Shown in pieces: positions 2,557 through 64,000 of a stretch of 64,000 nt of DNA. Made by a program: the position numbers and the translations under genes. Under the pieces are notes generated by a model. The model did not search any database. It worked only from the letters and a program-made list of their open reading frames with translations, and had not been told where the DNA came from. Every line of letters begins with the position of its first letter. Position 1 is the stretch's first letter. Source of the DNA: Acidobacterium sp. S8 (GTDB taxonomy: Bacteria; Acidobacteriota; Terriglobia; Terriglobales; Acidobacteriaceae); NCBI RefSeq assembly GCF_009765985.1, contig NZ_LMUM01000013.1, positions 1-64,000 on the forward strand, written 5' to 3'.

Positions 2557-2900
2557 CGCCTCAGACCAGACGCACGATTCTATCAAACGTCCCGACGTAT
2601 AAACTCGAGTCAAACAAGGTTCTCGCGGATCGGACTTTTTAGACAACCGCAATCCTCCCAATGGGTCAAGACTGCCAATTAGTGCTGTGAAGTTGCATAG
2701 CGGAAGCCACCTGCGATTCTCCCCACGCGCAAGCCACCCCGTTTCAATCTTGTCAAGTAGCAAACTGAATTGAGACTCTGGAAATAGCTGATTTCATTAA
2801 ACAATCGTGACAACAATGAATGTCAGAGTATTATGCCTCAAAAAGCTAAAATGGAAGTAGGAGCCAAACAATTAAGAGTGAAGCCCGAGCCAAATGAGAC
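2557..2900. other. Non-coding spacer, AT-richer than surroundings
   Basis: No supported gene. A minus-strand open frame overlaps the end of the HEPN-like gene but has no recognisable protein features. The sequence near 2740-2760 contains CTTGTCAAG; a related stretch, GGGGCTTGACAAG, occurs in the other repeat-rich spacer near 50170, so this may be the edge of the repeat element described next. Confidence 0.4.
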
Positions 2901-3038
2901 CCCCTCGTAAGTGATTGAAAACACTATAAACAGCCTAAACCGCTTCGTTTCAACCACTTAGCGGGGGATGATCCCCCGCTAAGTGGTTGAAAAATAAAGA
3001 AACTAGAAGCTACATAGGGAGGAGGGGGAGGGGGGTAG
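2901..3038 (-). repeat. Dispersed repeat element, copy 1 (about 135 bp)
   Basis: This stretch matches the reverse complement of 49735-49866 in the same internal order. 2908-2926 is an exact 19-base match to the complement of 49840-49858. A CACTTAGCGGGG / CCCCCGCT core is shared with 49781-49806. The purine-rich 3021-3038 segment matches the complement of 49735-49751 except for one extra G. The less conserved linkers differ, so this is a family of related elements rather than a recent duplication. No reading frame or transposase is associated. Confidence 0.75.
2948..2992. repeat. Perfect long palindrome, 22-bp arms with 1-nt centre
   Basis: The left arm 2948-2969 (TTTCAACCACTTAGCGGGGG plus AT) is the exact complement of the right arm 2971-2992, with a single G at 2970 between them. 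It lies within the dispersed element. The T-rich/A-rich outer arms would let either strand form a hairpin. The convergent position between a plus gene ending at 2556 and a minus gene ending at 3054 also allows a terminator role. Confidence 0.85.
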
Positions 3039-3053
3039 GCCCCGGTAATCCCC

Positions 3054-3872
3054 TCACCGCAACTGGATGGGAGCAGCCAGCTTGAAGTTCACCACCGATT
3101 CCGCCGGAATGGTGATGTCCTTGTTGCCGGTAAAAGCAGCGATTCCGGTCCCGGCGCCCGCGCCAGCCAGTCCGCCCACCAGCAAACCCACTCCGCCCGT
3201 GGCAACACCGCCGATCAGCATGCCCAACCCGGCGCCGCCGCCGATAAAGGCTGCGGAGCGCTTGCCTTTGCCTTTTTTCGTGCGCGTCAGGCTGCCGGTA
3301 TCGATGCGGTAATGCTGCCCATTCAGGTTAAGGCTGGTGAGTGTCAGCTGGATGTAGGACTTGCCTTTGAAGTGGCCGCGTTTGTGCGCGCTCACCACCA
3401 TGCCCTCAGCCGTCGCGCCGGAAGGAATGACTGTACTTCCATCTACCTGGACCGGATTGACAATCGTACCTGTGAAAGGCTGCCCAGCCTGCGCATGCTT
3501 CACGTTGATCGTCTGGCTCATGCGGATACTGAGGACGGTTCCCGCCGGAACCTCAGGCAGCGCCGGAGCGGGCGCGGTAGCATTCGTCGCCTGTTGCGGC
3601 GAAACCGGCTGGTCCGGTGTGGGCGTGACCGCTCCGGACGTGGGTGAGGAAGCCGCTGAAGACGGGGCCGGCGTGCCGGCAGGTGCGGGCTGGCTCGGTG
3701 CCGTCGACGGATTCGCCGGGGCTGCCGCCGCGCTTTGCGCCTGGTCAGGCGAGGCAGGCTGGGTCGAAGCCGAAGTCGATGCGGGCGGTTTCTCCGCGTC
3801 CGAAGGATTTTTGTGGCATCCCGCAATCAACGAAACTGCCAGCAAAAGTGCGATCTGCGCATGATTTTTCAT
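3054..3872 (-). CDS. Lipoprotein with Pro/Ala linker and glycine-zipper segment
   Basis: A 272-residue exported lipoprotein. The N-terminus is a lipoprotein signal peptide ending in the lipobox LIAGC (Cys19). Residues 25-105 are a low-complexity Pro/Ala/Ser/Gln spacer, followed by a compact domain starting near PEVPAGTVLSIRM. A Gly-rich hydrophobic segment around residues 205-245 (GGGAGLGMLIGGVATGGVG) resembles glycine-zipper membrane-associating segments. Similar 'spacer plus beta-domain plus glycine zipper' lipoproteins are common in Acidobacteria, but no biochemical role is established. It is transcribed divergently from kbl with about 140 bp between them. Confidence 0.75.
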   Translation of the reverse strand: MKNHAQIALLLAVSLIAGCHKNPSDAEKPPASTSASTQPASPDQAQSAAAAPANPSTAPSQPAPAGTPAPSSAASSPTSGAVTPTPDQPVSPQQATNATAPAPALPEVPAGTVLSIRMSQTINVKHAQAGQPFTGTIVNPVQVDGSTVIPSGATAEGMVVSAHKRGHFKGKSYIQLTLTSLNLNGQHYRIDTGSLTRTKKGKGKRSAAFIGGGAGLGMLIGGVATGGVGLLVGGLAGAGAGTGIAAFTGNKDITIPAESVVNFKLAAPIQLR

Positions 3873-29205: not shown

Positions 29206-29385
29206 CAAAACCGACCCGCGGGGCCGTGGAACGATGCGTCGGTGAACCCGTCCTAAGACGGTGGGAACTCTCCGCGGCTCTTTAGGCATTCCGAACTGGC
29301 GGACACTGCACACCGAGCCGATTTGTCGAGTCGAGCTCCCTGTTCAATGAATGTAGGTTCAACCGACGATTATCGCATCCACCTG
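29206..29385 (-). ncRNA. ssrS: 6S RNA
   Basis: The gene follows zapA on the same strand, the usual neighbour of 6S RNA. The minus strand forms a long interrupted rod. CGTCGGTTGAACC (29368-29356) pairs with GGTTCACCGACG (29248-29237) with one bulge. GGGAGCTC (29340-29333) pairs with GAGAGTTCCC, CGGCTC pairs with GAGCCG, and TCCG/CGGA caps the end. Between the first two stems is the central bubble: 15 unpaired nt on the 5' side (29355-29341), and on the 3' side a small CGTC-TTAG-GACG hairpin, as in known 6S RNAs. A GC hairpin with TTTTGC at about 29206-29226 looks like its terminator. 6S RNA binds sigma-70 RNA polymerase in the bubble. Confidence 0.78.
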
Positions 29386-29480
29386 CTTTGCAGGCCGGTT
29401 CTATTTTGGATGCTAGCGGCAGATGGCGAGGATTGCAAGTCGCGTCCGGAAGCACATTGTAACCAGAAGACTTAAGTCGC

Positions 29481-47435: not shown

Positions 47436-49688
47436 TTAGACGCTCTTTGCTAATCCACGCTTCGCCTGGATTTCAATGTACACGTTGATGAGGGAGAGCG
47501 CAGCCGGGGTGACGCCGGGGATGCGGCTCGCCTGCCCGATGGTCTGGGGACGGACGCGCAGGAGCTTCTCCTGCATCTCGCGGGAGAGGCCGCTGACGTT
47601 CTTGTAGTCGAACCAGTCGGGGATGGCACGCTCTTCGGCCTTCTTGAGCTTCTCGATGGCCTTCTTCTGTTGGTCGAGATAGCCGGAGTATTTGATCTCG
47701 GTTTCGACGGATTTGAGCTCGTTGCGGACTTGCGCGGATAAGACCGGGCCTGAAGGCCCTTTTTCGGTGGCCGCTGGATTCACCGGCCTAAAGGCCGGTG
47801 CTTCTATCGAGCCTTGCTGCGCAAGACTTACGGAAACTGCAGGTTCCTCGACTGCGCCGCTATACGGCTTCGCTCGGAATGACAATTCGTCAGCGTTTGC
47901 GAGCCAAGCGGCGAAGAGCGTGCTCTCGGAGGCGGTCAGTTCTTCGCGGATCACCGGGAAGAGCAGATCGATGGTCACTTCAGGGCGCTTGAGCAGTTGC
48001 GCATAGGTCTGCCCGGCGATGTTGCCTAGTTGCCCGGCAAGTTCAGGCAGGAGCGCTTGCAGGCGTTCGACGTTGGTCTTCTTCGTAGCGAGAAGCTTTT
48101 CCAGCGCTACGGCGCGGGCTTGCTTCTGCTCGTAGTCGGTCCAGGCTTCATCGGCGATGAGGCCGAGGCGGCGGCCGTGCGGCGTGAGGCGGCGGTCGGC
48201 GTTGTCGATGCGGAGATGGAGGCGGAACTCTGCGCGCGAGGTGAACATGCGGTAGGGCTCGTTGGTGCCCTTGCTGATGAGGTCGTCGATGAGGATGCCG
48301 GTGTAGGCTTCGGTGCGGTCGAGGGTGAATGGCGCTTCGCCCTTGACATAAAGGGCGGCGTTGATTCCGGCCATCAGGCCCTGGCAGGCGGCTTCTTCAT
48401 AGCCGGAGGTTCCGTTGATCTGTCCGGCAAGATAGAGGCCTTGGAACTGCTTTACGCGCAGGCTCCGGTCGAGTTCGGTAGGGTCGATGGCGTCGTACTC
48501 AATGGCGTAGCCGGGGCGCAGCATCTCGGCGTTCTCGAGGCCGGGAATGGAGTGGACGATCTCCCACTGGACTTCCATCGGCAGCGAGGTGGACATGCCG
48601 TTGACGTAGACTTCGTGCGTGTTGAGGCCTTCGGGTTCGAGGAAGAACTGGTGCTGCTCCTTGTCGGGGAACTTGACGACTTTGTCCTCGATCGAGGGGC
48701 AGTAGCGCGGGCCGGTCGCGGTGATCTGGCCGGAGTACATGGGCGAACGCATGACGTTCTCGCGGATCAAACGTAGCGTTTCCGGCGTTGTGTGCGCGAT
48801 ATGGCAGGAGATCTGGCGCTGCTTGATCTCTTTGGTGCGGAAGCTGAAGGGCGTCGGATCTTTGTCTCCAGGCTGCTCTTCGAACTGCTTCCAGTTAATC
48901 GTGCGGCCGTCGAGACGCGGCGGTGTTCCGGTCTTCAGGCGGCAGCCGCGCAGGCCGAGGCGCTTCAGTGCTTCGCCTAACAGGACCGATGGCGGTTCGC
49001 CGCTTCGGCCTGCGGGGTAGTTCTCTTCGCCGCAGTGGATGAGGCCGTTGAGGAATGTTCCGGTGGTGATCACGACTGCGCCTGCGTGCACGATGCGGTT
49101 GTCGCGGAGTTTTACGCCGATGATGCGGAGTGAAGGATGCGCTTCGCGCAACTGAGACGCAGCTTGCGCTGCGGGTCCTTCGACTGCGACGCGCTCATGC
49201 GCGTCTCCGCTCAGGATGACATCGGTTGGTGGAACTGCAGGTCCCTCCGCTTCGGTCGGGATGACAATTCCGTTTATTCCATCTGCATTTGCGGGAGCGA
49301 AAACAACATCCGCGACTTCGGCTTGTTTGATGAACAAATTTGGCTGCGATTCGAGCATTTCGCGCATTTTTACGCGGTATTGCTGCTTGTCGCATTGCGC
49401 TCGGGGCGACCATACGGCCGGGCCGCGGGAGGTGTTCAGCAGGCGGAACTGGATGCCGACCGCATCCGCCATTTCGCCCATGATGCCGCCCAAAGCGTCG
49501 ACTTCGCGGACGAGATGGCCTTTGGCAATGCCGCCGATGGCGGGGTTGCAGGACATCTGCGCGATGAGGTCGAGGTTCAGCGTGAACAGGGCTGTGCGCA
49601 GGCCCATGCGGGCCGCCGCCATGGCCGCTTCGCAGCCGGCGTGTCCGGCTCCGACGACGACTACATCGTACTGTTCGGTGAATGGCAT
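47436..49688 (-). CDS. mnmG: tRNA uridine-5-carboxymethylaminomethyl modification enzyme, enlarged
   Basis: A 750-residue FAD enzyme that with MnmE installs the cmnm5 group on U34 of several tRNAs. The FAD site [72 protein letters not shown] and [17 protein letters not shown] are intact. The C-terminal MnmE-binding region is also complete ([10 protein letters not shown] ... [15 protein letters not shown]). It exceeds the usual length (about 630) by roughly 115 residues, in two blocks: about 130-189 and 600-651. Both are low-similarity and encoded by dispersed-repeat DNA. Whether these loops affect activity is unknown. Confidence 0.95.
47736..47891. repeat. Repeat insertion 2 inside mnmG
   Basis: This block encodes MnmG residues about 600-651. 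It holds GGGCCTGAAGGCCC (47746-47759), the perfect hairpin CACCGGCCTAAAGGCCGGTG (47781-47800) followed by CTTCTA, and at 47837-47885 a unit starting CTGCAGGTTCCTCGACTGCG and ending CTTCGCTCGGAATGACAA. The same hairpin pair occurs at 49886-49937; the second unit recurs at 49169-49221 and 49235-49267. Confidence 0.8.
49122..49303. repeat. Repeat insertion 1 inside mnmG
   Basis: This block encodes MnmG residues about 130-189. It contains two copies of the motif that begins CTGCRGGTCC and ends GGATGACA: 49169-49221 (long form, including CGCTCATGCGCGTC) and 49235-49267 (short form CTGCAGGTCCCTCCGCTTCG...). The reading frame passes through without stops. The rest of the block has low similarity to MnmG. 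Confidence 0.7.
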
Positions 49689-49734
49689 AACTGTCCAGCT
49701 TTATTCTAGCTGGTTGGTGGTGTCGGCGGGGTGA

Positions 49735-49866
49735 CTACCCCCTCCCCCTCCGGGGGATCTATCTTTTGTGTATTTTCAAACACTTAGCGGGGCATCATCC
49801 CCCGCTATCCCACTGATATGACGTGGTTTAGATGGTTTCTAGTGTTTTCAATCACTTAGCGGGGGT
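49735..49866 (+). repeat. Dispersed repeat element, copy 2
   Basis: Reverse-oriented relative of 2901-3038. It begins with CTACCCCCTCCCCCTCC (49735-49751), has the palindromic core CACTTAGCGGGG...CCCCCGCTA at about 49781-49807 and an exact 19-base match (49840-49858) to the other copy's complement. In this copy the long palindrome is degraded on its right side, so arms are shorter. Confidence 0.7.
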
Positions 49867-49885
49867 CTGCGTCCCAAATATTCCC

Positions 49886-50060
49886 GGGCCTGAAGGCCCT
49901 TTTGAAATTGTCTTGGTCACCGGGCTAAAGCCCGGTGCTTCTACCCGGTCTTGCCTTCGTCACCAAACTAACGCCCGTGCTTCTCACTAGACCAAAGCCC
50001 AAGTGTTTCCACCTGTTCTTACGTTTGTTGCCGGGCTAAAGGCCGATGCTTCCACCCTGT
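49886..50060 (+). repeat. Tandem degenerate hairpin array
   Basis: GGGCCTGAAGGCCC (49886-49899) and the perfect hairpin CACCGGGCTAAAGCCCGGTG (49918-49937) are followed by three decayed relatives at about 49961, 49990 and 50028, each ending in a GCTTCT/GCTTCC or GTTTCC tail. Spacing varies (about 30-43 nt). No coding frame. It lies in the spacer between mnmG and the TonB-dependent receptor gene. Confidence 0.7.
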
Positions 50061-50249
50061 TTATTGGTCCTATATTCAGGATATCAATTTTGTGCGAAAT
50101 ACTCTGCCAAGTTTTTTACGGCGGTAAGTGATTTTATGCGTTTCACTTAGGCGATTTATGAGGCGCACAGGGGGCTTGACAAGAAATTTCACAAATCTGC
50201 CCGGACCTAACTTCGTGGAGGCGATGCCGGGATTTTTATTGCAAAGAAA
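50061..50249. other. Spacer after repeat array
   Basis: No gene supported. It contains GGGGCTTGACAAG near 50170, related to CTTGTCAAG near 2750 in the other repeat-rich spacer, and an AT-rich stretch around 50100-50150 with TAAGTGATTTTATGCG resembling parts of the dispersed element. Confidence 0.4.
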
Positions 50250-54078: not shown

Positions 54079-56568
54079 ATGGGAACCCTTTCTCTTGATT
54101 TGAAATTTGCTCTTCGCCAGCTGCGCAAGAGTCCCGGCTTTACCGTAACGGCTGTGCTCATGCTGGCCTTCGGTATTGGGGCGACGACGGCGATCTTTTC
54201 GATTGTGAATGGCGTGCTGCTGCGGCCGCTGCCCTTTCCGGAGCCGGACCGCCTGGTGGTGCTCGCCGATAAGCTTCAGGGCTTCCACGTAAATAATGGC
54301 AACAGTGAAGTGGGAGTGACCGCTCCGGATATTCGTGCGTACACGCGCGATACACATTCATTCGAGAGCATGGGCGGATACCAGTTTGCGTCCTATGAGT
54401 TGTCGGGCTCGGGCGAACCGGCTTTCCTGACCGGTGCCCGCATGACGGCGGGCGTCTTTCCGGCCTTGCGCGTGGCGCCTTTGATGGGCCGTTTTTTTAC
54501 GGTGCAGGAGGATGAGCAGAACCAGCAGGTGGTGATGCTGAGCTATTCCGTGTGGCAGGAGCGTTTCCATGGGGATCCGCATATTCTGGGCACGAAAGTT
54601 CTGCTGGATCGAAAGCCATATGTGGTGATTGGCGTAATGCCGCGGAATTTTGAGTTTCCGCTACAGGCCGGTCAGTTGAACCGTGTACAGCTCTGGGTGC
54701 CGATGAGCTTTCAGCAGGACGAACTTACGCGCGGAGCTGCTTCATGGAGCTACCAGACGGTAGGGCGGCTGCGGCATGGGGTCACTGCGGCGCAGGCACA
54801 GAGCGATGCGGAGCGGGTGGCGCAGGACATTATGCGGAGCTATCCGGCGTTTATGGCGAGTCTGCGTATCAGTTCGTCGGTGCGTCCGTTGCATGAAGAG
54901 ACGATAGAAGACGCTAAACCGCTGGTGCGGACATTATTTCTGGCGGTCGCGGTGGTGCTGCTGATTGCATGCGCGAACCTGGCAGGGTTGCTGCTTGTGC
55001 GGGCGATTCGCAGGCAGCGCGAGATGGCGGTGCGGCAGGCGCTGGGCGCTCCGGCATCGGCGCTGGTGCGGCAGACTTTGATGGAGAGCCTGCTGTTGAG
55101 CGTGAGCGGTGGCGTGCTGGGAGTTGTGCTGGCAGGAGTGGCGCTGCAGCTGGGCAAAGGATTGCTGCCGGAGAGTCTGCCGCGCATCGATGAGATCGGG
55201 TTGGACTGGATGGTGGTTGTATTTGCGCTCGGCCTGGCGATTTTGACGGGAGTGCTGTGCGGGCTGGCTCCGGCATTTGCGGCGTTGCGCACGAATGTAA
55301 ACGAGACGCTGAAAGAGGGCGGACGCAGCGGATCGGCGGGCGGCGTCCATGCGCGTTTGCGCTCGGCACTGGTGGTGGCGGAGATTGCAGTTGCGCTGGT
55401 GCTGCTTACCGCGTCCGGGCTGCTGTTGCGCAGCTTTGAGAAGATGCGCGCGGTGAATCTTGGCTACGATCCTGAGCATGTGACGACTGCTTCGTATTCC
55501 CTGCCGCAGAAACAGTATTCGACGCAGGCGCAGGTGGACACTTTCGATAAGGAGTTGCTGCGGAGGATGCGGCAGATTCCGGGGGCGAAATATGCGGCGC
55601 TGGTCAGCATGCTACCCGCGTCGAACCACAATAACAATCAGGCTTTTATTCCCGAAGGATATGTGCCGCAGGGCAATAATCTGAATCTGGCCACGAGCGC
55701 GGTGGTAGTGGGCGATTACTTCGAGAGTATGGGCATTCCGCTGGTGCGGGGGAGGTTCTTTACCGAAGCGGACCAAGCGACGACGCAGCTGGTGGTCATT
55801 GTGAACCGTAAACTTGCCGACCATTACTGGCCGGGGCAAAGCCCCGTCGGCAAGCGGCTGCACATTGGCACGCAGGATATGCAGATGCCGTGGCTGACGA
55901 TTGTGGGCGAGGTGGACGATGTGAAGCTGAGCTCGCCGGACGAAGAGACGAAGGCCCAGTTTTATTTTCCGGTGACACAAATGGAAACGGATATTGGCTC
56001 GCTTGCTTCACCCAATGATCTCAATGGCAATGGCGGTTACCTCGTACTGCGCAGCATGCTTCCGCCGGAGCACATGGAGAATGCACTGCGGCAGACGGTG
56101 CAGTCGATCGATCCGCAACTACCCCTGACAGAAGTGCAGACGATGGTGCAGGCGGTTTCGGAAAGCGAAGCGCCGCGACGCTTCAACACTGCGGTGATCA
56201 CGAGCTTTGCCTTTGCGGCGGTGGTGCTGGCGGTGCTCGGCATCTACAGCGTAATCGCCTTCTCTGTGGCCTCGCGTGTATCGGAGATGGCTATTCGGAT
56301 GGCGCTTGGATCGCAGCGTTCAGGGATTATCCAGCTGGTGCTCATTTCTGCCGGAAAGCTGGCTGCGATTGGCTGCGTGATTGGATTGTTGGGCGCTGCG
56401 GGGGCTTCAGGACTGCTGAGGTCTTTCCTCTTCAATGTCAGCCCGTTCGATCCGATGGTGATGATCCTGGCTGCGTTGTGCGTGCTGGTGCTTGCGCTGG
56501 CGGCATCGGCATTACCAGCGATGCGGGCGGCGGCCATCGATCCGATGAAGGCTCTGCGCTCGGAGTAA
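54079..56568 (+). CDS. ADOP-family ABC-type permease, no prefix domain
   Basis: An 829-residue MacB/FtsX-type permease. The start [20 protein letters not shown] and MLAFGIGATTAIFSIVNGVL is the first membrane span of the family. A large periplasmic MacB_PCD domain precedes the first FtsX core (about 285-400, LIACANLAGLLLVRAIRRQ). A second periplasmic domain precedes the last three spans, with ASRVSEMAIRMALGSQRSGI and ending MRAAAIDPMKALRSE. It is the ADOP arrangement with two FtsX halves, and no ATP-binding gene is adjacent. Unlike the other three copies it lacks the about 80-residue N-terminal prefix. Confidence 0.88.
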   Translation: MGTLSLDLKFALRQLRKSPGFTVTAVLMLAFGIGATTAIFSIVNGVLLRPLPFPEPDRLVVLADKLQGFHVNNGNSEVGVTAPDIRAYTRDTHSFESMGGYQFASYELSGSGEPAFLTGARMTAGVFPALRVAPLMGRFFTVQEDEQNQQVVMLSYSVWQERFHGDPHILGTKVLLDRKPYVVIGVMPRNFEFPLQAGQLNRVQLWVPMSFQQDELTRGAASWSYQTVGRLRHGVTAAQAQSDAERVAQDIMRSYPAFMASLRISSSVRPLHEETIEDAKPLVRTLFLAVAVVLLIACANLAGLLLVRAIRRQREMAVRQALGAPASALVRQTLMESLLLSVSGGVLGVVLAGVALQLGKGLLPESLPRIDEIGLDWMVVVFALGLAILTGVLCGLAPAFAALRTNVNETLKEGGRSGSAGGVHARLRSALVVAEIAVALVLLTASGLLLRSFEKMRAVNLGYDPEHVTTASYSLPQKQYSTQAQVDTFDKELLRRMRQIPGAKYAALVSMLPASNHNNNQAFIPEGYVPQGNNLNLATSAVVVGDYFESMGIPLVRGRFFTEADQATTQLVVIVNRKLADHYWPGQSPVGKRLHIGTQDMQMPWLTIVGEVDDVKLSSPDEETKAQFYFPVTQMETDIGSLASPNDLNGNGGYLVLRSMLPPEHMENALRQTVQSIDPQLPLTEVQTMVQAVSESEAPRRFNTAVITSFAFAAVVLAVLGIYSVIAFSVASRVSEMAIRMALGSQRSGIIQLVLISAGKLAAIGCVIGLLGAAGASGLLRSFLFNVSPFDPMVMILAALCVLVLALAASALPAMRAAAIDPMKALRSE

Positions 56569-56575
56569 AAGTCAT

Positions 56576-56632
56576 CTCCTCTTGCATTCCCATAGGAGTC
56601 GTGCCATGATTCCTATGGCGAACCAAGAGGAG
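56576..56632 (+). promoter_or_regulatory. Nested inverted repeat covering the padR ribosome binding site
   Basis: Outer arms CTCCTCTTG (56576-56584) and CAAGAGGAG (56624-56632) and inner arms CCATAGGA (56590-56597) and TCCTATGG (56611-56618) are all perfect. The outer right arm is the ribosome binding site (AGAGGAG) of the PadR gene at 56640. It could act as a PadR operator in DNA or as a structure hiding the site in RNA. Confidence 0.65.
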
Positions 56633-56639
56633 TAGAAGC

Positions 56640-56981
56640 ATGGGCGAAAAAGCCGACGTCTGGCAAGGCACGCTGGCGTTGATGGTTTTGAAGACGCTGG
56701 AGACGATGGGCGCGCAGCACGGATATGGCATTGCGCGACGCATTGAGCAGGTGAGCGACAATCAGCTGTCGTTGAATTATGGAACCCTATACCCGGCGCT
56801 GTTGAAGCTGGAGCAGGAGGGAGCCATCGCCTCGGAGTGGGGCGTCTCAGAAAACAACCGTAAGGCAAAGTTCTACAAGCTGACGCGCGCCGGCAGAAAG
56901 CAGCTGGAGCGCGAAGCGAAAGGCTGGGAGCAGACCAAGGCGATTGTTGCGCGCTTTCTTTCGCCGGCCGAGGAGGCGTGA
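56640..56981 (+). CDS. PadR-family regulator of the permease array
   Basis: A 113-residue short PadR regulator. The winged helix covers about residues 5-85: [29 protein letters not shown] and [19 protein letters not shown] are diagnostic, with [16 protein letters not shown] as the wing. The short C-terminal helix places it in the small PadR subgroup commonly found before ADOP permease genes. AGGAG lies 8 nt before the ATG. Its stop overlaps the start of the next permease (TGATG), so the two are translationally coupled. Confidence 0.92.
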
Positions 56982-59641
56982 TGCGAAAGCTGAGAGCCTT
57001 GTGGATGCGGCTGCGCGGCATGTTTGCTGGTGCGGCAGCGGAGGACGAACTTTCTGCTGAGCTGGAAAGTCATCTCCAGATGCACATCGAGGACAACCTG
57101 CGCTCCGGCATGACAGCGGAGGAAGCGCGGCGGCAGGCGCTGATTCAGCTCGGCGGTTTCGAACAATCCAAGCAGGCCTACCGCGAGCGGCGGGGACTGC
57201 CGTGGTTAGAAACACTGGGGCAGGATCTTCGATTCGGGATGCGCGTCTTGCGCAAGAGTCCCGGCTTTACGACGATTGCCGTGCTGACGCTTGCGCTGGG
57301 TATCGGCGCGAATACGGCAATCTTCTCCGTAGTGAAGGCTGTGTTGCTGGCTCCGCTGCCTTACAAAGATCCGGGGCGGATTGTCGCGGTGTGGACCGCG
57401 AACGCCGCGCGAGGCGGTCAGCCGCTACCAAGCACAGCCGCTGATTTCGCTATCTGGAAGCAGCGAAGCGGTGTCTTCGAAGATCTGGCGCCATCGTACG
57501 ACAACGAGATGACATTGACCGGACAGGGCGCGCCGCAATTTTTGATTGGGTATGCGGTCGCAGCGAATTATCTTCGGATTCTCGGCGTCGCTCCACAGAT
57601 CGGGCGGCTCTATACCGATCAGGAAGACAGGCCTGGCGGTCCCAAAGTGGTGCTGTTGAGCGATCACCTGTGGAGGACTACATTTCATTCCGACCCAAAC
57701 ATCACGGGCAGGGCGATCACGCTGGACGGACGGTCTTATACCGCGTTGGGCGTGATGCCGCGCGGATTCAACTATCCGCAGTCGGTTGAGATATGGATAC
57801 CGAGCGCCATCGAACCTTCGGCCTTTGACGATTTCAATCACACGTATGTGCGCATCCTTGGGCGGCTCAAGCCGAACGTGACTTTGGCACAGGCGCAGGT
57901 GGCGGTCAATGCGCTTGAAGCACAAGTAGCCAGCGCGCATCCGGACACGGACAGCGGTAATCGTGTTGTCCTCGTCCCGTTGCGAGAGCAGTTGAATGGA
58001 GACATTCGCAAACCGCTGCTGATTCTTATGGGCGCGGTTGGACTTGTGCTGTTGATTGCCTGTGCGAACACGGCAGGCCTGGCGCTGGCGCGCAATGCTG
58101 AGCGGCAGAGAGAAATCTCAGTCCGGCTCGCGCTGGGAGCGACTCGTAAGCGATTGCTGCGGCAATTTGCAACAGAAAGCTGCCTCTTGGCGACGATTGG
58201 CGGTGGACTCGGGATATTGCTGGCAATGGCAGGATCACATTTCCTGCTGACACTTTTCCCGAACGATGTATCGAACCTGAATATTCCGACTGTGACCAGC
58301 ATTCCGATCGATCGCGGCGTGATTTTATTTGCGTTCACGGTGACTGTCGCTGCTGCGCTTTTGTTCGGAACAGCGCCGGTACTGCGCGCGCTGCAGGTGG
58401 AAGCGGATGGCGTGATGAAAGAATCTGGACGCGGAATGACGGCGAGCCGCCGCTCGAACCGGCTGCGGAGTGCCGTTGTTGTCTGCGAGATCGCTTTATC
58501 CCTGATGCTGCTGACTGGCGCAGGGCTGGTCGTTGCGAGTTTTCAGAAGGTCGTAAATGCGGACCTTGGATTTCAGCCGGATCACCTTCTCTCCTTAGAG
58601 TTGTTTCTGCCGCCGGATCGCTATCCGCGCGAAGATCGGACGAGAACGCGCACATTTGTGGAACAAGTTGTGAAAAAGCTGGAGACGACGCCGGGTGTTG
58701 CATCGGCTGCAGCTACGAATTACCTGCCGCTGAGCGGCTTCTGGGGCACAACGAATTTTCTGCTTCGCGGACAGGCGCAGCCGAAGGATGGGCAGGCTCC
58801 GGAAGCGGACAATCGCACGATCACGCCGAATTATTTGCGCACTATGAAGATTCCGCTATTAAGTGGACGCGACTTTACCGACGCTGATCGCGATGGGACC
58901 ATGCACGTCGCGATGATTAACCAGACATTCGCGAAGCAGTATTTCAAGGACAAAGACCCGGTGGGCCAGGAACTGAACCTGGGAAGCATGGAGCAGCCCA
59001 ACTGGTGCGTCATCGTAGGCGTGACCGGCGACGTGAAGGCGTTCGGGCAGGATCAGCCAACGCATGCAGATATATACCAGCCATTCGATCAGCAGCCATA
59101 TCCGATTGTTGCTTTCACGCTTCGTACGCGAACAGATCCGGCGGCGATGGTGAAGGCTGCCGAACAGGTTTTGTGGAGCGTCGATCCCGAACTGCCTGTG
59201 TTCAAGGCTATACCGATGGAGCTGCTGGCCGATCAGAGCTTGGCCGTGCGTCGCGCAAGCTCAGTGCTGATTCTGGCGTTCTCTGTGCTCGCGCTGGTGC
59301 TGGCATGCATTGGGATTTACGGAGTCATGGCTTATGCAGTGGCACAGCGCACGCAGGAAATTGGCGTAAGGATGGCGTTTGGAGCGCGGCGTTCGGATGT
59401 ATTGCGGCTGATCATGAGTTTTGGCGCGAGGCTGGCGCTGTTGGGCATAGCTATTGGGCTGGCTGGCGCGTTGGGATTCACTCGCTTGCTTGCGAGCCTG
59501 TTGTTCGAAGTCAATGCGATGGACCCGGTGATATTTTCTGCTGCCGCAGCTTTGCTGGTACTGATTTTGATCTTTGCATGCTATGTACCGGCGCGGCGTG
59601 CGGCCTCAATTCAACCGACAGAAGCGCTGCGCGCTGAATAG
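56981..59641 (+). CDS. ADOP-family permease with prefix domain
   Basis: An 886-residue permease. The N-terminal 80 residues ([16 protein letters not shown] ... [15 protein letters not shown]) are the 'permease prefix domain', a helical segment found in ADOP members. The MacB_PCD domain then starts at [20 protein letters not shown]. The middle FtsX core contains [20 protein letters not shown] and the C-terminal core contains [20 protein letters not shown], ending [18 protein letters not shown] 56981 overlaps the padR stop by one base. No ATPase gene is present, so transport energy is unexplained. Confidence 0.9.
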
Positions 59642-59649
59642 GAGGCGTG

Positions 59650-62331
59650 ATGAAGAAGCTCAGAGCGCTATGGATGCGACTTGGTGGTGTCTTCAGCGCT
59701 CGCCAGGAGAACGACGAGTTCGATGCGGAGATTGCAAGCCATCTGCAGATGCACATCGATGACAACCTGCGCGCTGGGATGCCTCCGGCGCTGGCGCGGC
59801 GCGATGCGCTGGTGAAGCTGGGAGGTGTGGAGCAGACGCGGCAGGCGTACCGCGAACGGCGGGGACTGCCGTGGCTAGAAACACTGGGACAGGACCTTCG
59901 CTTCGGGCTGCGTGTCTTGCGGAAGAGTCCTGGCTTTACGACGATTGCCGTGCTGACGCTTGCGCTGGGTATCGGCGCGAATACGACGATCTTCTCGATC
60001 GTGAATGCGGTACTGCTGAATCCGCTGCCGTTTCCGCGCGCGGAGCAGCTGGTGGTGCTGCACGAACGCAAGCCTAACTTCGATCACGGCTCGATATCGT
60101 ATCCAAACTTTCTCGACTGGCGGCAGGATAATCACACGTTTTCGTCGATGGCGACCTCGCGCGGATATTACTTCAGCCTCACAGGAGCGGGGCCGGCGGA
60201 GCAGCTCGACGGTCAATTCATGACCTCGGATTTCTTCGAGACCCTGCAAGTCAAGCCGATGCTGGGGCGAACGTTTACCCGGGCGGAAGAGCAGCCAGGC
60301 GCGGCTCCGGTAGTGTTGATCAGCCAGGGGCTGTGGCAACGGAAATTTGGCTCGTCGCCGGATGTGCTGGGAAAAGGGATTGCTCTCGAAGGAAGGGCCT
60401 ACACCATTGTTGGAGTGATTCCGGCGAGCTTTCATTTCTCCGGCGGGATTCTGCCCAGCCGGGATGTTTACGTGCCGATGGGGCAGTGGGCGAATCCATC
60501 GCTCACGGATCGCGCTTCTGGAATGGGAATGCGCGGAATTGCCAGGTTGAAGCCCGGAGTGACCATCGAGCAGGCCAATGCCGATATGGAGCGGGTGACG
60601 CGGGATCTCGAATTGGCCTATCCCGCTGCGGATAAGGGCATCGGGGCAAAACTGGTTCCCTTGAAAGAACAGATGGTGGGGGATGTGCGGCCTTTCCTGC
60701 TGGTTCTGCTGGTGGCGGTGGGATTAGTGTTGTTGATTGCCTGCGTGAACGTTGCCAGCTTGATGCTGGCGCGCTCGACGGGACGGATGCGGGAGTTCGC
60801 TGTACGCACGGCGTTGGGAGCGAGCCGCAAGCGGGTGATTCGGCAACTGCTGACTGAGAGCCTGCTTGTCGCTGCTGCTGCCGGTGTGCTGGGACTTGGA
60901 CTGTCAGTCGCGGGTACACATGCCGGACTCAAACTTCTGCCGGAGGCCCTGCCGCGCGGAGAAGAGATTGGCATGGATTTGCATGTCCTGCTCTTCACCA
61001 TGACAGTTTCGCTGCTGGCTGGCGTGGTGTTTGGATGGATGCCGGCACTGAAGACATCGCAGGCCGATCCGCAATCGGCGCTTAAAGAAGGCGGGCGCGG
61101 GATGAGCGGGATACGCCATCGGGCGCAGAGCATTTTTGTTGCTGCGGAGATGGCGATGGCGCTGGTGCTGCTGATTGGCGCGGGCCTGATGCTGCGCAGC
61201 CTGACGCGGCTCTGGAATGTCGATCCCGGCTTCGATCCGCACCAGGTGCTGACCTTTGGCTACACACTTCCGCCTTCACTACTGCACAGCAGCCCCGATG
61301 CCATTCGCGCCGCATACCATGAATTCGAGGAGAGGCTGACGGCGACGCCGGGAGTGAGAGCGGTTTCGCAGTCGTGGGGCAGCCTTCCCATGAGCGACGA
61401 AGATGACGAGGATATGTTCTGGATGGCAGGGCAGCCGAAGCCAGCCGACGACAGCGGGATGAACTGGGCGCTCACCTATGTTGTCAGTCCCGATTACCTG
61501 AAGATGATGAAGATCCCTCTGCGGCGCGGGCGTTTTTTCAATACCCATGACGATATGAGATCGCCAATGGTAGCTGTGATCGATGATGCATTTGCCCACA
61601 AGTTTTTTCCGAATGAAGACCCCATCGGCAAACGGATTGTATTGAAGAGCGGCGCACGCGAAGTAGAAATTGTCGGCATTATTGGGCATGTGAAGCAGTG
61701 GGGGCTGGATACAGACGACACGTATCCACTACGCGCGGAGCTATATTCGCCGTGGACGCAGGTACAGGATAGCTTTGTGCAGCGTGCTCCATCGGGAATC
61801 AGCGCGGTCGTGCAATTCAACGGCTCCGCAGCGAACGCATCTGCCACAATTCGGCGGGCCATCGGGCAGATGAGCAATGAACAAATCATTTATGACATGC
61901 AGACGATGGAAAGCCTCATCTCAGACTCGCTGGCACAACAACGCTTTGTGATGATCCTGTTGGGGACATTTGCTGCCGTGGCCCTGCTGCTCGCCAGCGT
62001 GGGTATTTATGGGGTGATTGCCTACGTGGCAGGACAGCGCACGCAGGAGATTGGCGTGCGGATGGCTCTGGGTGCGCAGCGAACGGACGTGGTGCGCATG
62101 GTGCTGCTGGAAGGGATGCGGCCTGCCCTCTTCGGGATCGTGGTGGGAGCGGTTGCGGCGATAGGGTTAACACGATTCCTGGTGAAGATGCTTTACGGCG
62201 TCAGCCCGACGGATCCTCTGATTTTTTCCGGCCTTGCGCTGATGCTGGCACTGGTTGCGGTGGCGGCATGTTATCTGCCGGCACGGCGTGCGGCTTCGGT
62301 CGATCCCATGCAGGCCCTGCGCGCTGAATAG
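59650..62331 (+). CDS. ADOP-family permease with prefix domain
   Basis: An 893-residue permease closely related to its neighbours. The prefix domain ([20 protein letters not shown] ... [11 protein letters not shown]) is nearly the same as in the next gene. The first FtsX core has LLIACVNVASLMLARSTGRM and the last has [20 protein letters not shown], ending ARRAASVDPMQALRAE. Start ATG 59650 was preferred to the GTG at 59647 because GGAGG at 59641-59645 is too close to the GTG. A 54-base stretch is identical to one in the preceding gene, which suggests gene conversion or recent duplication. Substrate unknown. Confidence 0.9.
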   Translation: MKKLRALWMRLGGVFSARQENDEFDAEIASHLQMHIDDNLRAGMPPALARRDALVKLGGVEQTRQAYRERRGLPWLETLGQDLRFGLRVLRKSPGFTTIAVLTLALGIGANTTIFSIVNAVLLNPLPFPRAEQLVVLHERKPNFDHGSISYPNFLDWRQDNHTFSSMATSRGYYFSLTGAGPAEQLDGQFMTSDFFETLQVKPMLGRTFTRAEEQPGAAPVVLISQGLWQRKFGSSPDVLGKGIALEGRAYTIVGVIPASFHFSGGILPSRDVYVPMGQWANPSLTDRASGMGMRGIARLKPGVTIEQANADMERVTRDLELAYPAADKGIGAKLVPLKEQMVGDVRPFLLVLLVAVGLVLLIACVNVASLMLARSTGRMREFAVRTALGASRKRVIRQLLTESLLVAAAAGVLGLGLSVAGTHAGLKLLPEALPRGEEIGMDLHVLLFTMTVSLLAGVVFGWMPALKTSQADPQSALKEGGRGMSGIRHRAQSIFVAAEMAMALVLLIGAGLMLRSLTRLWNVDPGFDPHQVLTFGYTLPPSLLHSSPDAIRAAYHEFEERLTATPGVRAVSQSWGSLPMSDEDDEDMFWMAGQPKPADDSGMNWALTYVVSPDYLKMMKIPLRRGRFFNTHDDMRSPMVAVIDDAFAHKFFPNEDPIGKRIVLKSGAREVEIVGIIGHVKQWGLDTDDTYPLRAELYSPWTQVQDSFVQRAPSGISAVVQFNGSAANASATIRRAIGQMSNEQIIYDMQTMESLISDSLAQQRFVMILLGTFAAVALLLASVGIYGVIAYVAGQRTQEIGVRMALGAQRTDVVRMVLLEGMRPALFGIVVGAVAAIGLTRFLVKMLYGVSPTDPLIFSGLALMLALVAVAACYLPARRAASVDPMQALRAE

Positions 62332-62340
62332 GAGGGCGTG

Positions 62341-64000
62341 ATGAAGAAGCTGAGAGTGTTATGGATGCGGCTTGGCGGTGTTTTCAGCGTTCGCCAGGAG
62401 AACGACGAATTCGATGCGGAGATTGCGAGTCATCTACAGATGCACATTGATGACAACCAGCGCGCTGGAATGAGTCCGGTTGAGGCGCGGCGCGATGCAC
62501 TGGTGAAGCTGGGAGGCGTGGAGCAGACGCGGCAGGCGTATCGCGAGCGGCGAGGACTGCCGTGGATGGAGACGCTGGCGCAGGATTTTCGCTTTGCGCT
62601 GCGCATGCTGGCGAAGAGCCCTGGTTTTACTGCGGTGGCGATTGCGACGCTGGCGCTCGGCGTGGGCGCGAATACCGCACTGTTTTCCGTCGTGAATGGC
62701 GTACTGCTTCATCCTTTGCCGTATCCGCATGCGGAGGAGCTGGTGACGGTGCATGCCAGCAAGCAGAACTTCGCCGAAGGATCGATTTCGTATCTCAATT
62801 TTCGCGATTGGCAGCGCGATAACACGACGCTGGCGGCACTGGCGGTTTCGCGCGGCACAGGATTCAGCCTGACTGGCATGGGCGATGCGGAAGAGATGCG
62901 GGGCGAGCTGGTGTCGTCGGATTTCTTTCCGCTGCTGGGCGTGAAGCCGGTGATTGGGCGGCTGTTTGCTCCGCACGAGGATGAGATAGGACGCGAGCCG
63001 TTGGCGATGATCAGCGAAGGCTTCTGGCAGCGGAAATTTGGATCGCGGCCCGATGCTTTGGGCAAAGTGCTGACGCTGGACGGGCGTAACTACACGATTG
63101 TCGGAGTGCTGCCTGCGAATTTCAGCCTTGCGGTCGGGAATTTTCGCGCGGCGGATATCTACGTGCCGATTGGGCAGTTTCGCAATCCGGCGCTGAATGA
63201 GCGGGCGGCTGGACTGGGTATTCATGGTATTGCGCGGCTTAAGCCGCGGGTGACGTTTGAGCAGGCGCAGGCCGATATGCAGCAGGTTTCCGAGCGGCTG
63301 GAGCGGGAATATCCGGAAGAAGATAAGGACATTCGCGCGAAGCTGATTCCTTTTCAATATGCGATGGTGCGCGATGTGAAGCCACTGCTACTGATTCTGA
63401 TGGGCGCGGTGGGCTTTGTGCTGCTGATTGCATGCGTCAATATTGCCAACCTGTTGCTGGTGCGGTCGAATGCGCGGGCGCAGGAATTTGCACTGCGTTC
63501 GGCGCTGGGCGCGAGGCGCGGGCGGCTGCTACGCCAGCTGTTGACGGAGAGCCTGATGCTCTCGCTTGCGGGAGGACTGCTCGGGCTGCTGCTGGCCTCG
63601 TGGGGGACGCGGGTCATCCTGCAGCTGCTGCCGCAGGCAATGCCGCGTGCGGCTGATGTGCATATGAGCGGGACAGTGCTTGGCTTTACGCTGCTGGTTT
63701 CTCTGGCGGCTGGGACCCTCTTTGGACTGATGCCGGGGCTGAAGCTCTTCCGGCAGGATTTGCAGGGCGCGCTGAAAGATGGCGGACGCGGCACCAGCGG
63801 AGCACGGCAGAGAACGCAGAACTGGCTGGTGATCTTCCAGATGGCGACGACGCTGGTGCTGCTGGCTGGGGCGGGGCTGATGATTCGGAGCCTGGAAAAA
63901 CTTTCGCGGGTGGATACCGGCTTCCAGCCGCATGGCGTGATGACGTTTGGGATGGAAGCTTCGCCTTCACTGATGGGAGCAGGGCAGGATGCAACGCGGG
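62341..64000 (+). CDS. ADOP-family permease, cut by window end
   Basis: The open frame continues from ATG 62341 to the last base (553 codons seen) without a stop. It has the prefix domain, the first span SPGFTAVAIATLALGVGANT, the MacB_PCD domain, and the first FtsX core with LLIACVNIANLLLVRSNARA and ALGARRGRLLRQLLTESLML, and is leaving the second-half entry (VIFQMATTLVLLAGAGL) near the edge. It would be of about 890 residues by comparison with its neighbours. GGAGG precedes the ATG. Confidence 0.9.
   Translation, partial: MKKLRVLWMRLGGVFSVRQENDEFDAEIASHLQMHIDDNQRAGMSPVEARRDALVKLGGVEQTRQAYRERRGLPWMETLAQDFRFALRMLAKSPGFTAVAIATLALGVGANTALFSVVNGVLLHPLPYPHAEELVTVHASKQNFAEGSISYLNFRDWQRDNTTLAALAVSRGTGFSLTGMGDAEEMRGELVSSDFFPLLGVKPVIGRLFAPHEDEIGREPLAMISEGFWQRKFGSRPDALGKVLTLDGRNYTIVGVLPANFSLAVGNFRAADIYVPIGQFRNPALNERAAGLGIHGIARLKPRVTFEQAQADMQQVSERLEREYPEEDKDIRAKLIPFQYAMVRDVKPLLLILMGAVGFVLLIACVNIANLLLVRSNARAQEFALRSALGARRGRLLRQLLTESLMLSLAGGLLGLLLASWGTRVILQLLPQAMPRAADVHMSGTVLGFTLLVSLAAGTLFGLMPGLKLFRQDLQGALKDGGRGTSGARQRTQNWLVIFQMATTLVLLAGAGLMIRSLEKLSRVDTGFQPHGVMTFGMEASPSLMGAGQDATR

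Follow-up and report, generated by a model that had tools for sequence, protein, structure and literature searches.

The question raised here is what kind of element is shared, in opposite orientation, by two places in the window (the whole stretch analysed, 64,000 nucleotides, bases 1-64000 of contig 12 in the 5.44-Mb, 38-contig genome of Acidobacterium sp. S8, hereafter G000), and what it might do there. A sequence-only reading had described the two copies as a dispersed, palindromic element with conserved blocks separated by diverged linkers, and a repeat search of the window recovered both as an inverted pair (2901-2993 and 49773-49865) that is 80% complementary across 93 nt. The reported 19-base exact match between the copies, TAAGTGATTGAAAACACTA, was found at 2908-2926 in copy 1, as was the perfect palindrome of copy 1, with 22-bp arms (2948-2969 and 2971-2992) lying 1 nt apart. 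When a 151-bp query was searched against G000, copy 2 was matched at E = 3.6e-20 and 60 matches were obtained at E ≤ 10, which together exclude chance similarity. These came down to 28 places once split hits, hits to the palindrome on the opposite strand, and two isolated hits of 14-15 bases were discarded; the genome thus contains more than the two copies, the case in which the first reading would have been refuted, and genome matches and alignments alike agree with that reading of a dispersed element whose blocks are conserved and whose linkers vary freely.

The 135 bp of similarity correspond to the right half of a composite, ∼290-bp intergenic element. When 27 copies were aligned with their flanks, conservation extended far to the left of the stretch originally noted; the similarity first described is therefore real, but the full unit is about twice as long and starts at TGTCAAG. 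The element opens with an invariant TGTCAA; a promoter-like left module, then a variable linker and a right module follow, and a GGGGGAGGGGGTA-type tract closes it. The right module carries one motif three times (forward, inverted, forward), and the palindrome, initially taken as the unit, is instead formed by the second and third copies of this motif. Its consensus (alignment A1, 26 copies; L016 was omitted because it lacks the palindrome) reads GGACCCCCCGCTAAGTGATTGAAAACACTAGAA, a diverged stretch, AGAATCA, TAGCGGGGGATGATCCCCCGCTAA, ATTGAAAACAAA, and then a GGGGGGAGGGGGTA-type tract. The left-module consensus (alignment A2, 26 copies, L008 omitted) reads TGTCAA, TTGGCAGAGAATT, and a TA...T about 21 nt past TTGGCA, with TGTCAA and TA...T invariant in all 26 rows. 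In sigma-70 promoters, the -35 and -10 boxes are usually 16-18 bp apart, and the 21-bp spacing of the conserved TTGGCA and TANNNT boxes in A2 lies outside that range, which counts against reading the element as a control region. A simple scan of 2560-3060, covering copy 1 only, returned one sigma-70-like site in the left module (GTGACA-16-TATTAT, 2807-2834) that uses boxes other than the conserved pair, and no terminator in that interval. Linkers are mostly 20-90 bases long, with maxima of 760 in G000 (with a gene inside) and 1,843 in G003, a complete single-contig 6.27-Mb genome of the same genus. The parts of both window copies are listed in Table 1. The different repeat family noted there within the linker of copy 2 is a REP-like hairpin (CACCGG..CCGGTGCTTCTACC) that occurs in the window at 47780-47817, 49917-49954, and 50028-50065, the last two inside that linker.

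Table 1. Parts of the two window copies and their right-hand genes (R1 and R2, right- and left-module models; the copy 1 locus is among those used to build R2).
Feature	Position	Strand	Evidence or remark
Copy 1 left module (promoter-like)	2745..2861	+	R2 match E 4.1e-19; alignment A2
Copy 1 TGTCAAG, element start at 2751	2751-2757	+	Within left module
Copy 1 ATGTCAGAGTATT	2820-2832	+	Within left module
Copy 1 TANNNT box TAAAAT	2847-2852	+	Within left module
Copy 1 variable linker	2862..2893	+	Gap between R2 and R1 matches; unconserved
Copy 1 right module	2894..3040	+	R1 match E 4.7e-27; alignments A1, A4
Copy 1 motif 1 (forward), 19-base exact match with copy 2	2908..2926	+	
Copy 1 motif 2 (inverted) and motif 3 (forward), 22-bp-arm palindrome	2948..2992	.	
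Copy 1 purine tract GGGAGGAGGGGGAGGGGGGTA, right end	3017..3037	+	
Gene right of copy 1, convergent, stop codon adjoining right end	3054..3872	-	Gene edges approximate; no Pfam match at 1e-5
Copy 2 left module, element start TGTCAAG at 50181-50175	50069..50188	-	R2 match E 4.6e-17
Copy 2 linker, 196 bases, with two REP-like hairpins of a different repeat family	49873..50068	-	
Copy 2 right module	49726..49872	-	R1 match E 2.5e-28
Copy 2 motif 1	49858-49840	-	In right module
Copy 2 imperfect palindrome	about 49818-49774	-	In right module
Copy 2 purine tract	49751-49736	-	In right module
mnmG (gidA), start codon ∼50 bp right of copy 2	47436..49688	-	PF01134 E 1.3e-165

To count the two modules separately, R1 and the sequence-only model R2 were searched against G000, giving 29 places below E 1e-10 (plus weaker ones) and 43 places below 1e-5, respectively; because 150 of 541 (R1) and 150 of 515 (R2) first-look candidates were scored, weak copies in this genome may be missing from these counts. 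Each of the 29 strong right modules is preceded on its own strand by a left module; 26 of the 29 loci had served to build R2, and the remaining three show the left module as well. G003 provided an independent test, as R2 was trained on G000 alone: of the 35 places in it with a strong R1 match (a weak match near L131 was excluded), 33 are preceded on the same strand by a left module, which is partial in L099 and 1.8 kb distant in L122, and the other two, L128 and L130, have none. Across a sample of 61 related genomes searched under stricter filters, R1 was matched in all four members of the genus (G000 included), in two of 33 other members of the family (best E 2.7e-4), and in none of 24 beyond it. 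An exact 21-base pattern, searched in a named genome collection that may omit the records of G000 itself, retrieved four stretches: two acidobacterial metagenome bins account for three of them, and a gammaproteobacterium for the fourth. A literature search whose reach left out most subscription journals returned no description of the element or of the protein family introduced below. What is solidly established is a composite element that is lineage-specific, has conserved blocks, is linked to a family of protein genes, and has no match in any of the family libraries searched.

The tie to a gene family was evident at two loci of G000 (L155 and L146) and one of G003 (L108), which have a unit in common within unrelated outer flanks. 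Between L155 and L146 this unit is ∼780 bp long and 89.5% identical. It starts ∼45 bp before TGTCAAG, in a stretch resembling a REP-type hairpin of another family, continues through the left module, the right module, and GGGGGAGGGGGAG, and closes with a ∼143-aa ORF whose ATG follows GGGGGAGGGGGAG by ∼9 nt and whose stop codon marks the end of the unit. The encoded protein has the pattern C..H...G..C...C..H and is probably zinc-binding; it reaches the cut-off of no Pfam or NCBIfam family, the best sub-cut-off matches among its relatives being zf-primase (0.0018) and zf-C3Hc3H (0.014), and its AlphaFold model (mean pLDDT 62.5) is too weak for a fold search. The proteins thus form an uncharacterised multicopy family that carries no Pfam or NCBIfam name. 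Matches were found three times in G000 (one broken), 12 times at 11 places in G003, five times in G009, and once in G024. In a phylum-wide sample, the protein was present in 21 of 297 genomes, every one in the family of the window; at most ten candidates were scored per genome, and at least ten listed genomes of that family have no match. Among the 11 G003 homolog loci, an R2 match lies upstream at eight (as it does beside the broken G000 copy) and R1 is matched at L108 only, leaving seven further loci with the left module only. Six gene-bearing copies in G003 are homologous from TGTCAAG onward and preceded by unrelated DNA, except that two share further sequence; they have no three-motif right module. 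The absence of that module from the gene-bearing copies of the larger subfamily in G003, and of an R2 match at three of the 11 loci, counts against a control region. In the G003 loci L206 to L211, the ORF ends of gene-bearing copies extend into unrelated flanking DNA, and the paralogs have their own C-terminal tails after a partly common end of the type L.KI.AVAE.

Tentatively, and with confidence falling a little short of even, we favour the reading that each copy is a solo control region copied from the multicopy Cys/His gene and read by its protein. The left module would serve as an active promoter, followed by a leader and then by the right module with its three GCTA-N6-TTGA-type motifs and the G-rich tract at its end; the small Cys/His protein, or a partner, would bind the motifs and thereby tune transcription from the left module of its own gene. 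The same protein would also act at ∼35 solo sites, which would make them a single regulon. Solo copies may have arisen when the control region was duplicated, either alone or together with the gene, and the ones retained would be under purifying selection. This is the best supported reading, and the evidence that suggests it is one of arrangement and conservation: the region found upstream of the candidate regulator gene, as autoregulation predicts, is the whole region and recurs at three genes, and intact copies are conserved in place in seven (right module) and eight (left module) pairs between two species, as described below.

The palindrome could alternatively be read as RNA, the element being a small RNA gene or a 3′-UTR or terminator element in which the palindrome forms a hairpin. 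The strong hairpin in copy 1 and the terminator-like hairpins detected by a simple rule in 22 of 64 linkers would suit such a role, but the palindrome hairpin is not followed by a U-run, and the RNAalifold consensus contained 8 pairs with a covariation term of 0.06. In 62 copies, pairing at the variable positions of the outer arm occurs at roughly the frequency expected of independent columns, exceeding it slightly at three or four positions (e.g., 25 vs 19.4), and because the outer arm lacks covariation, a DNA motif fits better than an RNA hairpin. The perfect outer arm of copy 1, noted in the first description, is accordingly absent as a property of the family; the core palindrome is conserved sequence, and the outer part of the 22-bp arm is largely due to chance. 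Rfam returned no element match at the gathering score in the window and nothing credible at E ≤ 0.5 for four loci. Overall, an RNA role is improbable, even with the placement of the right end considered next.

That end lies closer to a gene than the left end does in 59 of 65 elements (medians 11 and 169 bp; the left ends of L128 and L130 are assumed in these counts). Genes were called with a custom dicodon script, and their edges are therefore approximate. Convergent right-hand genes were found at 43 of 66 elements (42 of the 65 with both neighbours), and in 40 of the 43 the stop codon of this gene falls -21 to 43 bp from the right end, within the precision of the gene edges, a position that favours the RNA reading. 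That 42 of 65 elements are directed at the 3′ end of a convergent gene is unexpected for promoters and speaks against a control region. The 65 elements comprise 26 in convergent, 7 in divergent, and 16 + 16 in tandem gene arrangements. Right-hand genes were searched for 20 of the 31 G000 elements (that of L145 in part only) and include those for MnmG, topoisomerase I, EPSP synthase, TGT, a kinase, transporters, a DDE transposase, and others, with one of the 20 lacking a family; no common function was found among them, a further point against a control region. With 29 to 35 sites in each of two genomes, and a spacing in G003 that is more even than random (CV 0.708, P 0.024, one of several tests tried), the elements might instead be chromosome-organising sites acting in nucleoid structure or segregation; this is very unlikely, as the statistic is weak, the strands are mixed, and most sites differ between species.

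Conservation in place was assessed from nine G000/G003 element pairs that have a neighbouring orthologous gene in common. Seven strong pairs were used for the right module (L160/L100 and L167/L105 were excluded as weak), with conserved columns defined from the other copies. Conserved columns were identical at 320 of 345 positions (93%), and variable columns at 59 of 194 (30.4%), the same as in random pairs (30.4%). In the left modules of eight pairs, the corresponding values were 184 of 204 for conserved and 122 of 331 for variable columns (36.9%; random 30.4%). Since the blocks are retained at common loci where neutral sites are near saturation, purifying selection in place is indicated, in line with the earlier suggestion of selection on specific blocks, and the sequences suggest that copies common to the two species are under such selection and that the element does something. 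The comparison sees intact copies only, and repeated insertion at one spot or gene conversion could partly mimic its result. Of the 36 G000 loci fetched, only about nine have an element at the orthologous place in G003, which weighs against a control region. In a closer pair of genomes, G151 and G220, all 16 matched places are colinear (coordinates were read by eye, and some matches span only ∼30 bases). One G151 element (G151:C1:3095738-3097899, compared with L256) contains ∼2.2 kb of extra DNA relative to G220, with an 8-base overlap of the alignment ends, and this insert resembles an insertion sequence.

The main rival to the regulatory reading is a non-autonomous, MITE-like mobile element with the ends TGTCAAG and GGGGGTA, moved in trans, whose blocks would be those needed by the mobilising enzyme. 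Several observations agree with it: the copies are dispersed and genus-specific; the ∼780-bp unit has been duplicated between unrelated outer flanks; homology of the six gene-bearing copies begins at TGTCAAG, two sharing further; the element of L138 in G000 is missing after the orthologous gene in G003 (L112), and G003 has none next to its orthologue of the gene that flanks copy 1 on the right; and the gene arrangements fit insertion plus selection against promoters. However, no convincing target-site duplication, a check that the first reading had proposed, was found at any offset across 59 elements; five of 64 were dropped because one end could not be placed, and the largest excess, among 1,058 offset pairs tried at each of five lengths, was three 4-mer matches where 0.36 were expected. 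Terminal inverted repeats were likewise absent by inspection, the ends TGTCAAG and GGGGGAGGGGGTA not being inverse, and a search for Y1 enzymes, the only kind sought, yielded no mobilising enzyme. The shared places of G151 and G220 and the retention of blocks beside saturated linkers in orthologous copies also argue against it. We regard this relic of mobility as possible, if on balance doubtful, and the two readings may both be true, at different times. Two further types of mobile end were considered and set aside: Tn7/Mu-like ends (a motif on both sides, with a TGT start), as a looser fourth motif in the left module is matched in just 22 of 62 copies and the right end has no ACA, and IS200/IS605-type ends, as no terminal hairpins were seen on inspection.

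A more specific mobile origin is that of a REP/BIME/REPIN-type repeat moved by RAYT (Y1) transposases, for which a check was also proposed at the outset. The element is palindromic and extragenic, and two of the three Y1 genes in G000 lie within ∼1 kb of an element, on one side only. All three are, however, situated amid palindromic repeats of other families, and of the five Y1 loci in G000 and G003, a left module is present on one side of two and on both sides of none, with no left-module match at either G003 locus. G287 has matches to the form of the element found in another genus, g51, yet no Y1 match. The unit is ∼290 bp rather than 20-40 bp, and inspection found no strict GTAG or CGTC tag, the tract often being followed by GTA and then variable sequence. 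A RAYT link is therefore disfavoured, and this origin is highly improbable. The palindromic repeats that surround the three RAYT-type genes of G000 (L272, L274, and L276) are each their own: CACCGGCCTAAAGGCCGGTGCTTCTACC, GGTGCCCCAGGTTCGCGAAGCTAACCTGGG, and CCCACCCTTTGCTTCGCAAAGGATGGGGCACCC.

Returning to the favoured control-region reading, the layout was sought at 25 gene loci outside the genus, 15 from g51 and 10 from four more genera. In g51, TGTCAA occurs within 600 nt upstream at 13 of 15 loci, a G tract within 150 nt of the start at 14, and the full TGTCAA-TGGC-N22-TANNNT series at 10. The four other genera have TGTCAA at six of 10 loci (three at unlikely distances), a G tract at five, and the full box series at none of the 10. 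Over all 25 loci, TGTCAA is found upstream at 19, vs four on the reverse strand and one downstream. Solo copies exist in g51 as well. When the g51 region L229 was searched against five g51 genomes, four of them yielded 15 to 21 matches each and the remaining one a single match; many of these matches span the right module alone and end at the tract. Nine g51 solo copies located away from known gene places were examined with their upstream DNA; all nine have the TGGC box, the TANNNT box, and the G tract, and eight have TGTCAA, always 49 nt ahead of TGGC(G/A)TAT. By these sequence comparisons, the box letters are genus-specific and the layout appears common across genera, and its presence upstream of the gene is firm in the genus of the window and in g51 only; in the four others it is weak and less sure, which counts against a control region. 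A broader form of the same idea, that of a lineage-specific global system in which the Cys/His family disperses its entire control region and solo copies at gene ends are kept by selection as its binding and transcription sites, seems somewhat unlikely.

Dispersed repeats in bacteria are mostly regarded as hairpins or as relics of transposons, and the element resembles several known systems in part. MITEs are short, present in many copies, and mostly devoid of an ORF, as is the element, which differs in that no terminal inverted repeat was seen and no target-site duplication found, and in having blocks conserved in place. Putative mobile promoters place promoter-like sequence beside unrelated genes (a literature search found no paper using that phrase); the element is also promoter-like and beside unrelated genes, but it mostly faces convergent genes and is linked to a single gene family. 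An autoregulated regulator with a regulon has its operator motif repeated at its own gene and elsewhere, and here, too, the motif occurs at the candidate regulator's own gene and at other sites, except that the entire control region, with its promoter-like half and G tract, is repeated rather than the operator alone. REP and REPIN sequences with their RAYTs are palindromic, extragenic, dispersed, often downstream of genes, and long-lived (PMC3733652, PMC8049555). The element has these same properties, but it is a ∼290-bp composite, one half of which is promoter-like, and it contains three motifs and a G tract and has no strict GTAG/CGTC tag or clear RAYT link. The TIR families of TIRYT transposases, which have been reported from Koribacter and Terriglobus, among others (PMC3733652), are likewise moderately abundant repeats in Acidobacteria; the element differs in not flanking Y1 genes as inverted pairs. 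With a long composite element that is linked to a family of protein genes and has been kept in place, the question of whether a regulon was built by copying a control region can be asked directly. If the favoured reading is true, a regulon would have been built by copying the control region of its regulator, and the element would be a concrete candidate DNA target for an unnamed multicopy protein family.

Two other features of the window were recorded. A 6S RNA gene (Rfam RF00013, 61.7 bits) is located at 29209-29399 on the minus strand, and four tandem diverged genes of ∼2.5-2.7 kb each, the last cut by the window end, occupy 54079-63999 and are the source of the largest direct-repeat families in the window.
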